Shown here: positions 1,918 to 39,120 of the stretch, in pieces
Numbering within the stretch: position 1 is the stretch's first letter
Layout of the letters: every line of letters starts with the position of its first letter
Source of the DNA: Rickettsiales bacterium
Lineage (GTDB): Bacteria > Pseudomonadota > Alphaproteobacteria > Rickettsiales > UBA8987
Direction of reading: 5' to 3'
Assembly: GCA_033762595.1 (NCBI GenBank)
Contig: JANRLM010000003.1
Location: 1 to 41,332 of the forward strand
Length of the DNA stretch: 41,332 nucleotides
Program-made: the position numbers and the translations under genes
Notes under the pieces: model-generated
What the model was told of the DNA's origin: nothing
The model's input: the letters and a program-made list of their open reading frames with translations, nothing else
Databases searched by the model: none

Positions 1918-3213
1918 ATGAAAATGTATTTTACTATAATATTTTTAATTTTATTTGCGTTTGATGCGAATTCTCAAACCTCAAGCAACCCAAATATCAG
2001 TAACATTAGAATTGATGGGAATTTTAACCCGGGCGGGTTGGGCGGAGAGCCAAATTTTGATGATAGAAGAAGGCCAAGTGCTAACCCAGAGAAAGCTCAG
2101 GATAAAAGTGAAATTATCAATCTTGAGAAGCAAAATGATGGCAACCAAGTAAAAATTATTCAAGCCGATAACCCCTTTGAGATTAAGCTCGGAAGCCAAA
2201 ATTCTAACCAGCCTGAAGTTATTAATGTTGATGAGAATGGTAATAGCCAAGTTAATCAAACGGAGAATTTTAAGCCGTTTAATAATTATGAATTTACTAA
2301 GGAAAACTTAGCAAAACCAGCCAATACTTACGGCACAGATAATTATAATAATCCGCAAAGTGAGTTATATCAAAGGGCTAAGAACCCTAATTTTATTGAT
2401 GCACAGCAACCCTCGCAAAAGTTTGAGGAGGTTAAGGAATCTTGCGATGACAGAAAGGAAATTTGTATAAAATATTTTATCTCGCCAGAGATTATTGTTT
2501 TTGAAGCAGCAAATAAATCGCCTACCACTAAAACAATTTCAATGATGATTTGGAATAGTAATTCTGTGCTGAAATATATGGTGAGAAGCCCAGAGAAAAT
2601 TATTTTGCGAGGTAAAGAAAATATAAAAATCGCTGAAATCTATGTTAATCAAAATGGTGAGGAAGCTAGCTTCAACTTCAATTTCAAGGCTACAGATGGG
2701 TTTATTGATGCTATTCACGATAATTCTTATGTTTATGCTTTACCGTTTGAGCCGGGCAAAACTTTTAAGATGATTCAAGGTTATGGTGGAAAGTTTTCGC
2801 ACACTGATGAAGAAAATTATTTTTCTTACGATTTCAGAATGCCAACCGGAACTCCTGTTTTCTCAGCTCGTGAAGGGGTGGTGGTGAAGGTGCGGGAATA
2901 TTACGCAGATGGTGGGCTTGATGCAAGGCTTAGGGAGAAATCTAATTTCGTTCACATTGAGCATGAAGATGGAACTATCGGAATTTACGCTCACTTGGCA
3001 AGGGGCGGTGCGAGTGTGAATATAGGTGATTATGTTCAGAAGGGGCAGATGATTGGTTTTTCGGGCAATACTGGCTATAGTGGCTCACCGCATTTGCATT
3101 TTGCGGTCGCAAAGGTGAAGAAGAACGGCAAGATGCAATCTCTACCGATAAGAATGCAAACCCAAACCGGTGTTTTTGATAGATTAAAGGAAGGCGAGTA
3201 TTTGGTTAGGTAG
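1918..3213 (+). CDS. Secreted M23-family peptidoglycan endopeptidase
   Basis: Start chosen at the ATG at 1918 (431 aa). It is followed by a short Lys, a hydrophobic stretch and ANSQ, a standard signal peptide. A longer frame from 1789 would place 43 unlikely residues before it and overlap selO. After export there is an Asn/Gln/Pro-rich low-complexity region (about residues 20-170), then a beta-rich segment, then a C-terminal LytM/M23 domain (about residues 300-420). Zinc-site features are visible: SHTDEE...YDF near the start of the domain, IYAHLARG in the middle and the hallmark HLHFAV near the end. Such proteins cleave peptidoglycan cross-links in the periplasm or act as activators of amidases. 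All metal ligands appear present, so an active enzyme is likely. Confidence 0.88.
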   Translation: MKMYFTIIFLILFAFDANSQTSSNPNISNIRIDGNFNPGGLGGEPNFDDRRRPSANPEKAQDKSEIINLEKQNDGNQVKIIQADNPFEIKLGSQNSNQPEVINVDENGNSQVNQTENFKPFNNYEFTKENLAKPANTYGTDNYNNPQSELYQRAKNPNFIDAQQPSQKFEEVKESCDDRKEICIKYFISPEIIVFEAANKSPTTKTISMMIWNSNSVLKYMVRSPEKIILRGKENIKIAEIYVNQNGEEASFNFNFKATDGFIDAIHDNSYVYALPFEPGKTFKMIQGYGGKFSHTDEENYFSYDFRMPTGTPVFSAREGVVVKVREYYADGGLDARLREKSNFVHIEHEDGTIGIYAHLARGGASVNIGDYVQKGQMIGFSGNTGYSGSPHLHFAVAKVKKNGKMQSLPIRMQTQTGVFDRLKEGEYLVR

Positions 3214-3215
3214 TT

Positions 3216-3324
3216 GGTTGATGGTTGATGGTTGATGGTCTTTGGAAAATATTCCTCCCCCTGTTTACGGGGGGAGGTTAGGTGGGGGGCTTGATTGGTT
3301 GATGGTTGATAGTTGATGGTTGAT
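3216..3324 (+). repeat. Two (GGTTGAT)n heptamer tracts flanking a GC-rich palindrome
   Basis: Three perfect GGTTGAT heptamers occupy 3216-3236. Four more (the third has A for the first G) occupy 3297-3324. Between them lies the GC-rich palindrome listed separately. The tract begins directly after the stop codon of the M23 peptidase gene and precedes the tail of the sulfotransferase gene. The same heptamer, on the opposite strand, occurs inside ubiG, and degenerate copies are found around ccoP/ccoQ. Confidence 0.85.
3254..3277. repeat. GC-rich hairpin (8-bp perfect stem), possible bidirectional terminator
   Basis: CCTCCCCC at 3254-3261 pairs perfectly with GGGGGAGG at 3270-3277 across an 8-nt loop. 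It lies between the convergent M23 peptidase and sulfotransferase genes, where a terminator would be useful, but no T-run follows. The G-rich tail (GGTTAGGTGGGGGG) beside it resembles dispersed intergenic palindromes seen in many alphaproteobacteria. It may therefore be a repeat element rather than, or as well as, a terminator. Confidence 0.6.
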
Positions 3325-3375
3325 TGGTTTGCGATAAGCTTAAATCTTCTCCCTTAACCAGTTTATGTTTTATCA

Positions 3376-4308
3376 TTAATTAAAAAAAGGGAAAATATTA
3401 TTACTTGGTTGCAAATATATTATATTTTTCATACTCTTAATTTGCTCAATATCCTGTTTATATCTTAAAGAAAGTAGATCATATTCTTGATTGGAAAATA
3501 GGCTAGGTTTATTATAGCCTTGCTTGGTTGAAAAGTTTTTGGTTAAGAAGGCTCTAACTTTATTCTTGTCTTCTTTTTTTGATAAAATGCTATTTGCTGC
3601 TATAGCTATTTTTAGGGCTTCTTCTGAGTATGAAGGATTTATTTTTTTGTCTTGTATTAAATAGAATGATTTAGGATCAATATTAAATGCTATTTTTGAT
3701 ATAATTTTTTTCTTAAAATTATCATCGCTACTAAAGCTTTCATAATCCCATACTACAAGCTCTACATTTTTTGAGCTGTCTAAAATATTTTGCAAAATGC
3801 TTAACCAGCTTAAATTTTCTAAGACTTCTTTAGAAATAAAACTCTTAAAGCTATAAGAAACTCCCATCTTAACAAGCTGTAAATAGGCAGATTCAATAAA
3901 GCTTGCATAATTTCTAATACAAAAAAATATTTTTATTTTATAATTCTTTAACTCAGTATTGATAAAATTGAGGTACTTACCAACATCATTGTAAAGATAT
4001 TTAGTTACTTTTAAGTTTAGTGAACCTGAAATTTCTTCATCAGAAATAATTATCTTATTTTTTAACAAATATTCATTTTCAAAACTTTTTAATTCCTTTC
4101 TAAGTTGGGTTGAATCTAGTTTTTGTAAATTTCCAGTTACCCCTTCAATTCTTCTTAAAATATTCCAGTTTAACTTTTTGGTATATTTAAGTCTTGAACA
4201 ATAAAATATATTTTTATTTTCTAATAATGAAATATTTTTTTCTAAAGTTTCTTGAATGAAAGTGGTAGCTGTTTTATGAGCACCTATGTGTAAATTAATT
4301 TCTTTCAT
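3376..4308 (-). CDS. Sulfotransferase-family protein (PAPS-type P-loop)
   Basis: A 310-residue protein that opens with HIGAHKTATTFIQ (residues 7-19). This is the 5'-phosphosulfate-binding loop of bacterial carbohydrate sulfotransferases (usual form H-I-G-x-x-K-T-G/A-T-T-x-x-Q). Further on, CIRNYASFIESAYLQL fits the 3'-phosphate-binding Arg...Ser motif. Members use PAPS to sulfate sugars or other acceptors; some relatives modify surface polysaccharide. Its ATG overlaps the TGA of the upstream glycosyltransferase in an ATGA junction, so the two are translationally coupled and probably act on the same surface glycan. The protein is very rich in Lys, Asn and Ile. The acceptor is unknown. Confidence 0.7.
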   Translation of the reverse strand: MKEINLHIGAHKTATTFIQETLEKNISLLENKNIFYCSRLKYTKKLNWNILRRIEGVTGNLQKLDSTQLRKELKSFENEYLLKNKIIISDEEISGSLNLKVTKYLYNDVGKYLNFINTELKNYKIKIFFCIRNYASFIESAYLQLVKMGVSYSFKSFISKEVLENLSWLSILQNILDSSKNVELVVWDYESFSSDDNFKKKIISKIAFNIDPKSFYLIQDKKINPSYSEEALKIAIAANSILSKKEDKNKVRAFLTKNFSTKQGYNKPSLFSNQEYDLLSLRYKQDIEQIKSMKNIIYLQPSNNIFPFFN

Positions 4309-6575
4309 TTCGGATTACCTAATATTGGTTTAACTAGTTTAGAATCTCTAAAAAACTTAATCGGAGACTTCATTAGCTTTCGCAATTTTCTTCTTCTAAT
4401 ACTTAACTTATTATCATCATTTGTATTGCTTACTTTATTATTTTCTGCGATATTTTTTAATATTTTCTTTTTAGAAATTGATAAAAGTTCTTCGTTTGTA
4501 ATCTGGTTTAATCTTCCCCAGAAATAAGAATTTTTTGAATTATTCAATAATAAATTAGAATATAAGTTTACTGACTTTCCATCAAAAGATATTCTTGGTA
4601 ATTTTATATCGCTATAATCGTGAGCAGCTCTATCAGAGAATTTTTTTATTACATCGACTCCACTAAAAAATGAATATTTTTCAGTAATAATCCAGTTCAA
4701 GTAATTTATTACTTTTTCTGATAAATTATCTATTTTGTATCTTTTTTTTAAGAAATCCTTGATATCATCGATTGACTTAATGCTTTTTGCTAAACCAGCT
4801 TTTGAGTAAAATGAGTTTCCTAGAGTATAAACTGGCTTGTTATGTATTGCAGATAATAACCCAACGCCTGAATTATAACATAAAGTTGCATCTGAAATAT
4901 CGATTAACTTATGGACATTAATATCATCTACAATAATAATATTTTTTCCTTTCTCATTAATTTTAAGATTTGTGAGGGGGTGATTTTTAATTAAAAATAA
5001 AATATTCTCGTTTAACTTTGCAAATTCTAATAGTTTTTTAGTAAATTCTTCATACTTTATGTAGCCATAATTATAATATGTAACTGCCATATCATTATGC
5101 AACTGAAGAGGAATAAAAATTTTCTTACCTTCAAAGCTGTGAATTTTATTTATTTTACTATTTTCATCATTAGCCTTTGGGTTTTTTTCAAGTGTTACTT
5201 CTCCTTTTTTAATTTCTTCAATATACTCTTGAATTATTTGTCTATTTTGTAAATTAGGTGAATACTTGTCTAAGTTAATATTTATGTAATCTTTATCGTT
5301 GTAAGCTACCGTGTTTGAATAATATATTGTATTTGGTAACGCCCCTCTTTCAATTACAAGAGGTTTGATTTTAAGGCTGATTCCATAATCAAAAATTTTT
5401 CTTATATCTTTATGAGATTTCATGTAGGGGTTGAATATGCTAATAAAATCTATTTTGTTTTCTTTTATAAGTTTTTTGGCTCTGTTTTCTTCGTTCTGAG
5501 AATATTTATAAATCGGCATTAATTTATATCCAAGCGATCTTAGAAAAATAAAATATTTCCAGTTATTAAAATGTTCAATTAGACAAATAATATTTTTTTC
5601 TTTATGAATAAAATCTATTGAAAGCAATTTTTCGTTATTTTCTATATATTCGTTAAGTTCTTTATAGAACTTAGATCTTTTCCAGTCATTTGATTTTACC
5701 CAAGCTAAATTATTTGGTTTATCGTGATGAAGGTGAAAAGTTGCATACCCATTTATTTCAGCGTGGAAAGAAATAAGCGAGAAAAGTTGTCTAAAGCCTT
5801 CGTAGGTTTTTAAGCTATAAAAAGAAGATTTGAGTGGACCATAAAAGTCTTTATCAATTTTTTCTGGTTTTTTCCATATATCAGAAATTATTGCATATCT
5901 AATTAAAAACTCAAAATCTTCTGAGCCGTGTCCTCTAAAATTTTCATTATAACCGCCAACTACTTCAAATAATGTTTTATGGCAGAAAAAAATATTTGAA
6001 TAAGGTGCAACAAAGTCAACAAGCTTATTTGAAAAATCTAAGGTTGCCTGAGTTTTTATTTTTATAAATTCTTGAGATTTTTTACTATTATCATTGTAAT
6101 TATTAATAATATCAGTTGATTTTTTGCTAAGATGGTAAACTGGAAAATTCAACATCATCATTCTATTATTATGTAAGTCTAATGCGTTAGCATCTTTTAC
6201 TAAGCGAGCAAATACATCCTTTTCAAAAAAACAATCTGCATCATTAAATAACACTAAATCTGTTTTTATATTTTCAAATCCTCTATTTTTTGCAATACTT
6301 GGGGAAAAAACTCCTTTATCATCTATGTAATGATATGTTATTCCCTTTTTTTTACATAAATTTTTTAATCTAATTTGATAATCGTCATTTGATCCAAAAT
6401 CTACTAATAAAATTTGAGGTTTAGGTTCATAATAATCTGCTGTAAGCTCAATTCTATCAAATAGATATTCATTGAATTCGTGGATTCTAACTGCAATTAA
6501 AAGCGTGATATCATCTACTGAATAAATTTTGCTTTTATTGTATAACTTAGAAGCTATTTCTAATAAATTATTCAT
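4305..6575 (-). CDS. Bidomain protein: GT2-type glycosyltransferase plus Kps-like capsule glycosyltransferase region
   Basis: Start placed at the ATG at 6575 (756 aa), preceded by TTGGGGTTAGTA with a G-rich Shine-Dalgarno-like stretch. A TTG 12 bp further upstream is possible. The N-terminal ~300 residues form a GT-A fold: ILLVDFGSNDD, AKNRGFENIKTDLVLFNDAD (the DAD metal-binding motif), then GGYNENFRGHGSEDFEFLIR, the acceptor-side motif of family-2 and chondroitin-polymerase-like enzymes. The C-terminal half has KKIFIPLQLHNDMAVTYY, FLIKNHPLTNL and CYNSGVGLLSAIHNKPVYTLG, the pattern of KpsC/KpsS-type capsule transferases. It is coupled to the sulfotransferase gene by an ATGA overlap. Composition is markedly more Lys/Asn-rich than nearby housekeeping genes, which suggests acquisition. 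Exact sugars are unknown. Confidence 0.72.
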   Translation of the reverse strand: MNNLLEIASKLYNKSKIYSVDDITLLIAVRIHEFNEYLFDRIELTADYYEPKPQILLVDFGSNDDYQIRLKNLCKKKGITYHYIDDKGVFSPSIAKNRGFENIKTDLVLFNDADCFFEKDVFARLVKDANALDLHNNRMMMLNFPVYHLSKKSTDIINNYNDNSKKSQEFIKIKTQATLDFSNKLVDFVAPYSNIFFCHKTLFEVVGGYNENFRGHGSEDFEFLIRYAIISDIWKKPEKIDKDFYGPLKSSFYSLKTYEGFRQLFSLISFHAEINGYATFHLHHDKPNNLAWVKSNDWKRSKFYKELNEYIENNEKLLSIDFIHKEKNIICLIEHFNNWKYFIFLRSLGYKLMPIYKYSQNEENRAKKLIKENKIDFISIFNPYMKSHKDIRKIFDYGISLKIKPLVIERGALPNTIYYSNTVAYNDKDYININLDKYSPNLQNRQIIQEYIEEIKKGEVTLEKNPKANDENSKINKIHSFEGKKIFIPLQLHNDMAVTYYNYGYIKYEEFTKKLLEFAKLNENILFLIKNHPLTNLKINEKGKNIIIVDDINVHKLIDISDATLCYNSGVGLLSAIHNKPVYTLGNSFYSKAGLAKSIKSIDDIKDFLKKRYKIDNLSEKVINYLNWIITEKYSFFSGVDVIKKFSDRAAHDYSDIKLPRISFDGKSVNLYSNLLLNNSKNSYFWGRLNQITNEELLSISKKKILKNIAENNKVSNTNDDNKLSIRRRKLRKLMKSPIKFFRDSKLVKPILGNPK

Positions 6576-6598
6576 TACTAACCCCAAAATTAAAATTT

Positions 6599-7002: not shown

Positions 7003-7100
7003 CCAGTTGGTCGTAGGTGGACGGAAAACCCGCTAACCCGGACAGATTCGAAAGAAAGCACCCGTAACGGAATTTTTTCGGGTCATCTACGGCTAACTAG
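7003..7100 (+). ncRNA. ffs: Signal recognition particle RNA (4.5S-like), divergent
   Basis: The long outer arm is AGTTGGTCGTAGGTG..AC (from 7005) pairing with GTCATCTACGGCTAACT (7082-7098). The apical part has GCTAACCCGGACAGATTCG then AAAGAAAGCACCCGTAACGG. This follows the alphaproteobacterial SRP RNA domain IV layout (CTAACCCGGTCAGGTCC, GGAA loop, GGAAGCAGCCGTAACG). The closing helix has changed by paired substitutions from UCC/GGA to UUC/GAA, and the loop from GGAA to GAAA, still a GNRA tetraloop. Length (~98 nt) is normal for a small SRP RNA. It binds Ffh to target membrane proteins. The symmetric loop and its closing pair also differ from consensus, as described in the findings. Ends are approximate. 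Confidence 0.75.
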
Positions 7101-7117
7101 TTATTTGGGCTTAGGGT

Positions 7118-7218: not shown

Positions 7219-7932
7219 ATGAAATCAATAAACCCCCAAGAAATTGAGAAATTCTCTCGTATAGCTGATGAATGGTGGAATCCCAACGGCAAATTTAAGC
7301 CTCTGCACAAATTTAACCCCACTAGGCTAGAATATATTGTTAAAGTAATCTTTGAAAAACCATCAACCATCAACCATCAACCATTAACCATATTAGATAT
7401 CGGCTGCGGTGGTGGGTTGCTTTCAGTGCCTCTTGCAAGGCTTGGGGCGAAGGTTACGGGCATTGATGCTTCTGAAAAGAATATTCAAGTTGCCTCACTT
7501 TATGCGGAGAGAGAAGAGATTGAGATTGAGTATCTCTGTACCTCTGCGGAAGAATTATCCGCCCAAAATCGCAAATTTGATGTTGTGCTTAATATGGAAG
7601 TGATTGAGCATGTGGCAGATGTAGAATCTTTTATGCAAGCTAGTTGTAACCTTGTTAAAGAGGGTGGTTTGATTTTAATCGCGACGCTAAATAGAAATTT
7701 GAAATCCCTCGCTTTTGCAAAAATCGGGGCGGAATATATCTTAAATTGGTTGCCAAAAGGAACTCACGATTGGAATAAATTCTTAAAACCTTCTGAAATT
7801 CATAATCTATTGGAAACTAATAATTGCAAGCCTCTTGAAGCAAAAGGTGTAACTTACAAGCCATTCAAAGATAAATTTGAACTCTCAGATGATTTATCTG
7901 TAAATTATATGATTCTAGCAAGGAAGGGTTAG
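7219..7932 (+). CDS. ubiG: Ubiquinone biosynthesis O-methyltransferase UbiG
   Basis: A 237-residue SAM-dependent methyltransferase that carries out both O-methylation steps of ubiquinone synthesis. The N-terminus INPQEIEKFSRIADEWWNPN...PLHKFNPTRLEYI is the UbiG-specific lead. LDIGCGGGLLSVPLARLGA is SAM motif I, VTGIDASEKNI is motif II and FDVVLNMEVIEHV is motif III. THDWNKFLKPSEI is the UbiG membrane-associated insertion. The residues PSTINHQPLT just before motif I are encoded by a (ATCAACC)n heptamer tract, so a repeat is part of the reading frame here. The stop overlaps the convergent DUF1365 stop by 4 bp. All core motifs are intact, so it should be functional. Confidence 0.96.
   Translation: MKSINPQEIEKFSRIADEWWNPNGKFKPLHKFNPTRLEYIVKVIFEKPSTINHQPLTILDIGCGGGLLSVPLARLGAKVTGIDASEKNIQVASLYAEREEIEIEYLCTSAEELSAQNRKFDVVLNMEVIEHVADVESFMQASCNLVKEGGLILIATLNRNLKSLAFAKIGAEYILNWLPKGTHDWNKFLKPSEIHNLLETNNCKPLEAKGVTYKPFKDKFELSDDLSVNYMILARKG
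7362..7389 (+). repeat. (ATCAACC)n heptamer tract inside ubiG coding sequence
   Basis: Three perfect ATCAACC units (7362-7382) are followed by ATTAACC (7383-7389). This is the same heptamer family as the GGTTGAT tracts at 3216-3324, on the other strand. It encodes part of a variable linker between the UbiG N-terminal helix and SAM motif I. Confidence 0.85.
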
Positions 7933-38653: not shown

Positions 38654-38691
38654 TAAAGTATGTTTGGTTTTTAATATTTAAATTTGAAAAA

Positions 38692-39076
38692 GGGATAATC
38701 TATAAGCCGAGTTCTGTTCAGGCGTAAGCCTTCTGCAACCATTCATCTGGAGGTAAAATCACTTTTACCCTCTAGCAACTTACCCGAATATTAGTGAGTT
38801 TCCTCAAAATTTCAGAAAATAATTTGACTTGAAGCCAAGCCCTAATATCCCTACTTAGTTTTGCTTCTGGTGAGGTTTTGCGTGCCTTGTTTGTTGGCAA
38901 ACAAGCGGTAGGCTCTTACCCTGCCTTTTCACCCTTACCTTAAATTGCTTTAAGGCGGTTTGTTTTCTGTGCCACTTTCTCTAAGGTTACCCCTGCTAGT
39001 AATTACCTAGCACCATTTTCTGTGAAGCCCGGACTTTCCTCTCAAGTTTAACCCCAAGCGGTTGCTCGATTATCCC
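38692..39076 (-). ncRNA. rnpB: RNase P RNA
   Basis: Read on the minus strand, the 5' end GGGATAATCGAGC pairs with the 3' end GATTATCCC (P1). The universally conserved GAGGAAAGTCCGGGC (39042-39028 region) is followed by the 3' ACAGAACTCGGCTTATAG (P4 partner) near 38700-38717. Length (~385 nt) and layout fit a bacterial type A RNA of alphaproteobacterial style. It processes tRNA 5' ends. It lies 44 bp after the FAH-family gene; exact ends are approximate. Confidence 0.95.
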
Positions 39077-39120
39077 AAGCAAATTTGTTAAACCAACAAT
39101 GCAAATATTCAAGTGATATT

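Follow-up and report, generated by a model that had tools for sequence, protein, structure and literature searches.

The gene pair at 3376-6575 of the window, by which the whole analysed stretch of 41,332 nucleotides from a Rickettsiales genome is meant, probably (at a probability of roughly 0.6) represents the serotype-specific part of a group-2-type capsule dependent on an ABC transporter, comprising a polymerase and a sulfotransferase. The polymerase role, the donor sugars, the glycan as sulfate acceptor and the joint translation of both genes are all proposed here. The evidence comprises the domains and motifs of both proteins, the capsule and PAPS genes found elsewhere in the same genome, and the relatives of each protein in other bacteria and on plasmids.

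The gene pair and the bidomain glycosyltransferase

Both open reading frames of the original prediction are present, and their four-base overlap reads ATGA (Table 1). The glycosyltransferase gene has an alternative TTG start at 6587, giving 4305-6587 and 760 amino acids; the ATG at 6575 is the more likely start, while residue numbers are given here in the 760-residue frame. The pair is flanked by genes for SelO, an M23 peptidase, a DUF486/DMT protein and a UbiG-like methyltransferase and by the SRP RNA, and stands alone, as these neighbours are unrelated to it. The flanks are of the housekeeping kind and the capsule cluster is not found at this locus; the genome's own capsule genes are located on different contigs (C92 and C124) and, consequently, no cluster links the pair to them. 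Promoter and terminator scans gave results no better than shuffles.

Table 1. Positions of the features of the gene pair and its surroundings in the window
Feature	Positions	Strand	Remarks
Bidomain glycosyltransferase gene	4305-6575	-	756 aa from ATG at 6575; proposed capsule polymerase
N-half, GT2/GT-A domain (PF10111)	5655-6506	-	PF10111 E 4.6e-60, residues 28-311
C-half, KpsS/KpsC-like GT-B domain (PF05159)	4674-5594	-	PF05159 E 2e-15, residues 472-631
E413, predicted general base, counterpart of KpsC Glu66	5349-5351	-	invariant; aligns with KpsS E117
QXXXD motif Q495-D499; D499 predicted catalytic nucleophile	5091-5105	-	invariant in relatives; aligns with KpsS Q240/D244
HP motif H536, P537, with K534	4977-4982	-	invariant; aligns with KpsS H282/P283
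Predicted PAPS-dependent sulfotransferase gene	3376-4308	-	310 aa; start overlaps glycosyltransferase stop
Predicted 5'-phosphosulfate binding loop KTATT, residues 12-16	4261-4275	-	conserved in 58 relatives; before model's first helix
Predicted 3'-phosphate binding R132 ... S140	3889-3915	-	R132 58/58, S140 54/58; neither used for selection
GTTGATG heptamer tandem repeats	3209-3337	.	3' edge of pair; outside the unit, genome-wide
Palindromic GC-rich element	3254-3277		downstream of sulfotransferase gene
Small SRP RNA	7005-7101	+	above Rfam gathering score
RNase P RNA	38687-39077	-	above Rfam gathering score

The claimed fusion of a GT2 domain with a KpsC/KpsS-like domain is borne out by profile searches of both halves, giving PF10111 and PF05159, respectively. 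Besides its profile match, the N-half possesses the DxD motif of the GT2 enzymes (D116/D118) and the stretch GHGSEDFE at residues 219-226, including the ED motif SEDFE (222-226), all invariant among the relatives of the bidomain enzyme. The AlphaFold model of the whole protein reaches a pLDDT of only 56 overall and is too weak in the C-half. The N-half of this low-confidence model resembles polymerising GT-A enzymes, namely LARGE1, K4 chondroitin polymerase and heparosan synthase; in the fold comparison of the C-half, KpsC is not among the matches listed, which for so weak a model is not counter-evidence.

The C-half, which the original prediction related to capsule glycosyltransferases, indeed matches KpsS over residues 332-638 (hhalign, 97.1%, E 6.9e-11) and KpsC (profile comparison, 96.0%, E 4.3e-9). 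The QXXXD nucleophile motif and the general-base role of Glu66 were defined in KpsC (PMC10148158), and these residues were mapped onto D499 and E413 through the KpsS alignment. As seen by its sequence, the C-half thus keeps the nucleophile, the general base and the KxHP motif of the retaining β-Kdo transferases of the KpsC/KpsS group, and Kdo transfer is its predicted activity. The same fold could also have come to use another donor, such as a CMP-nonulosonic acid or a nucleotide hexose, so that the C-half would no longer be a Kdo transferase. Divergence within the KpsC/KpsS group is large (PMC10148158) and the identity to KpsS and KpsC is low here, 18-29% in profile alignments; however, as D499, E413 and the K/HP residues are all retained, a change of donor is considered possible but rather unlikely.

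The presence of two transferase modules in one chain also bears on the role of the whole enzyme. Instead of polymerising the capsule, it could act as a transition transferase adding one or a few residues to the Kdo primer, or form a side branch, with the polymerase encoded elsewhere. ABC-transporter capsules do include cases with transition transferases (PMC11666461), and a glycosyltransferase survey covering PF10111 gives two other matches to this family in the genome. Those two proteins are, by sequence, an ordinary GT2 enzyme and a polyprenol-phosphate-sugar-synthase-like protein; moreover, two glycosyltransferase modules for different donor classes in one chain are the layout of a known bifunctional capsule enzyme, KrkA of E. 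coli K13, which transfers Kdo and ribose (PMC12887879). A non-polymerase role therefore seems unlikely, and the bidomain enzyme is taken as the candidate polymerase below.

The predicted sulfotransferase

The 310-residue protein has no match in Pfam, including Sulfotransfer_1 and Sulfotransfer_3, or in NCBIfam. A tblastn scan of genomes returned 182 relatives, of which 79 loci were kept and 58 aligned, and the AlphaFold model obtained from this 58-sequence alignment has a pLDDT of 89.8. When the model is compared by VIA-align, the first 33 rows are all PAPS sulfotransferases, led by the heparan sulfate 3-O-sulfotransferase 5 (Z 12.9, 215 residues, rmsd 3.8) and including NDST (Z 12.2), and the first unrelated row is an adenylate kinase (Z 8.0). 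In addition, the alignment profile matches SULT1A with an E of 8.7e-5. Foldseek against the PDB gave no match for the model at E <= 0.001 and is not significant alone; the assignment is thus based on VIA-align, the profile match and the motifs. Searching the PDB by sequence with single queries yielded no useful match.

Regarding the motifs, the predicted 5'-phosphosulfate loop is accompanied by the arginine and serine expected to bind the 3'-phosphate (Table 1). HKTAT was part of the search pattern, so the conservation of the loop is partly due to selection; meanwhile, R132, E91 and W168 lie outside the pattern and are invariant in all 58 relatives. As modelled, the second gene encodes a PAPS-type sulfotransferase, in line with the original prediction, its activity being predicted. 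Each of the two Pfam models matches one relative among the 58 and NCBIfam matches none, showing that the family is poorly covered, and the missing Pfam match is ascribed, given the modelled fold, to the limited reach of those models.

Several of the closest relatives are encoded in capsule-export loci, as in Croceicoccus, where the gene lies directly upstream of KpsM/KpsT, and on plasmids of Limimaricola and Leisingera, while about 70 of the 79 loci lack recognisable capsule genes of the export or stealth type next to them. This variety of settings leaves room for another acceptor, whether LPS or an O-antigen, a glycoprotein or some small molecule; a shared operon would then be all that the overlap of the two genes reflects. 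LPS sulfation is known from S. meliloti, and one relative in a Rickettsiales MAG overlaps a flippase-like gene near genes of the pseudaminic-acid type. However, the model comes closest to sulfotransferases that act on a polysaccharide, heparan sulfate, and the gene overlaps that of a capsule-type glycosyltransferase, and these features, together with the relatives in capsule-export loci, make an acceptor other than the capsule glycan improbable. The sulfation of this glycan is accordingly a proposal drawn from the gene pair and the modelled fold.

In the MAG just mentioned (L115, 3037-3915), the genes near the relative resemble, by eye, those of pseudaminic-acid synthesis and a polysialyltransferase. 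The relative of Pseudooceanicola atlanticus (L042, 7053-8879) lies inside a 608-residue reading frame with an extra N-terminal region. Most weak CysNC matches in the sulfotransferase loci were disregarded, having the length of EF-Tu.

Capsule and PAPS genes of the genome

The genome, of 1.67 Mb and 97% complete, encodes CysD, CysH and a CysNC with an APS kinase domain; the PAPS synthesis on which the original prediction depended is present, since CysD and CysNC together enable the genome to make PAPS. The capsule pathway expected for a surface-glycan pair is found as well. Contig C124 carries KpsC, KpsS, a KpsD-like export protein and, with its gene beside that of the KpsD-like protein, a UDP-glucose dehydrogenase (Ugd, by sequence), and contig C92 carries KpsM and KpsT, so that these proteins make up a scattered group-2-type capsule system. 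KpsC occurs in 10 of the 217 genomes sampled from Rickettsiales, two of them (G001 and G006) in the family of this genome. The putative polymerase, or a relative of it, is accompanied by KpsC, KpsS, KpsM, KpsT and export genes in this genome, on the Citrobacter plasmid described below and in a genome of another Rickettsiales family (G157), where a KpsM-T-E-C-S cluster lies about 57 kb from the fusion relative.

In the proposed pathway, KpsS and KpsC of contig C124 would make the Kdo-glycolipid primer, which the bidomain enzyme would extend as the capsule polymerase. Its GT2 half would add a sugar from a nucleotide-sugar donor, and its KpsC/KpsS-like half would transfer Kdo, or an ulosonic acid related to it, from a CMP donor in a double displacement with D499 as the nucleophile and E413 as the base. 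With PAPS supplied by CysD and CysNC, the sulfotransferase would move the sulfate to a hydroxyl or amino group of the capsule glycan in the cytoplasm, and the sulfated glycan would then be exported by KpsM/KpsT and the KpsD-like protein.

Relatives, origin and comparison with known systems

The domain fusion, originally thought to be possibly new, is already present elsewhere and that idea is rejected. Full-length two-domain relatives, 33-38% identical, are found in the rkp-3 region of S. meliloti, on a Citrobacter plasmid, on Shinella plasmids and on phage-like contigs, and the fusion also occurs in another Rickettsiales family. A six-frame protein search of plasmids placed the relatives on S. 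meliloti pSymB and on the Citrobacter and Shinella plasmids at about 37-38% identity, and four IMG/VR contigs carry the fusion at 35-37%. A scan of the genome collection with the single bidomain protein as the query found no relatives, and the annotated phage collection held no relative of either protein. The S. meliloti copy is located in the KpsM/KpsT/RkpR region of pSymB, the rkp-3 capsule region; the Citrobacter locus has an ABC permease and ATPase, an acetyltransferase, and capsule synthesis and export genes; and a Shinella plasmid copy has cysD-cysN close by, next to capsule genes. Among the fusion-relative loci found, a sulfotransferase gene adjoining the fusion gene is seen only in this genome.

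Bidomain polymerases of this kind would seem to travel with temperate phages, as the relatives suggest, and could switch the capsule of the host. The two relatives in the other Rickettsiales family are those of G157 and G038, and the G157 protein is 27% identical to the window protein, which is closer to the Citrobacter protein (37%) than to this relative from its own order. These identities suggest that the two Rickettsiales families acquired the fusion separately. As a side observation, three of the four IMG/VR contigs (L130, L132 and L133) have tail fibre genes or an endolysin nearby, and GH108 endolysin-like remnants lie near the S. meliloti copy (L028, 6317-7397).

The pair itself was probably gained horizontally, as its distribution is patchy and its GC low: a full-length fusion relative and a sulfotransferase relative each occur in 3 of the 217 genomes of the order, this genome included in both counts. 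The claim of horizontal acquisition stands in this form, with a gain that is likely not recent. As previously noted, the proteins are rich in Lys, Asn and Ile, which make up 33% of their residues where the mean is 24% (z about 2), and no other gene in the window has a GC as low as these two (0.245 and 0.257; z -2.9 and -2.6); however, the neighbouring DUF1365 gene is similar in both respects (35% and 0.269), and in synonymous codon use the pair does not stand out from the other genes. The repeats at one edge, taken earlier as a hint of acquisition, give no sign of mobility. The GTTGATG heptamers are also present at 7358-7385 of the window and on further contigs of the genome, with 20 exact 15-mer matches as compared with 1 for the reversed control, and are no marker of the gene pair because they recur genome-wide. 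A recent-transfer genomic island was therefore rejected, as codon use is ordinary, the repeats are dispersed and low GC alone remains. In the related genera the genes flanking the pair are not neighbours, so that a synteny test for insertion is uninformative.

The same heptamers occur in frame in the coding regions of CysNC, CysD and CysH (L001 and L012), encoding peptides such as STINHQP, and CysH has a longer apparent in-frame insert including one heptamer peptide. Another peptide of this insert, PPVYGGRQGGG, could be read from a GC-rich palindrome like that downstream of the sulfotransferase gene, and the element may thus be dispersed.

Few bacterial capsules are known to be sulfated, and knowledge of the sulfotransferases involved is poor; the pair offers a compact two-gene test case. 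Its second gene draws attention to a family of sulfotransferases that escapes the current models of Pfam and NCBIfam and whose relatives occur in many alphaproteobacteria. The pair also leads to the prediction of a capsule in a lineage of Rickettsiales, which are known mainly as intracellular bacteria. More broadly, and only tentatively, some Rickettsiales may carry a Kdo-containing sulfated ABC-transporter capsule, whose serotype-deciding enzyme would come from a pool of bidomain polymerases that plasmids and temperate phages carry between alphaproteobacteria and enterobacteria.

Comparing the pair with known systems, the closest are the S. meliloti rkp-3 enzyme and the homologue on Citrobacter freundii plasmid pRHBSTW-00985_4, which have the same domains in the same order, align over 86-88% of the length and are about 37% identical. 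Unlike the gene studied here, both have acetyltransferases annotated nearby and no sulfotransferase annotated adjacent, and the S. meliloti enzyme differs by its C-terminal TPR repeats. With KpsS and KpsC, the C-half shares the PF05159 profile match, the QXXXD motif, the general-base Glu and the K/HP residues; it differs in being fused to a GT2 domain, with separate KpsS and KpsC genes in the same genome. Kdo in E. coli capsules goes along with predicted GT99/GT107-like domains (PMC13171606). As in KrkA, a retaining Kdo-type module and a second transferase are joined in one polypeptide, the module of KrkA being of the WbbB/KpsC fold type and the enzyme making the capsule repeat (PMC12887879). 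However, KrkA has a GT140 Kdo module at the N-terminus followed by a ribosyltransferase, whereas the present enzyme begins with its GT2 domain, and the sequence of its Kdo-type half matches KpsS/KpsC.

The sulfotransferase, in turn, resembles the heparan sulfate 3-O-sulfotransferases and the NDST domain in its modelled fold over residues 1-300 and in its PAPS-binding motifs, but is only 10-16% identical to heparan sulfate sulfotransferases, bacterial, presumably cytoplasmic, and without a Pfam or NCBIfam model. A sulfated ABC-transporter capsule has been described in Vibrio sp. KMM 8419 (PMC11641403), where PAPS genes and sulfotransferases likewise accompany the capsule genes, although they are gathered there in one large cluster, with glycosyltransferases of other families.
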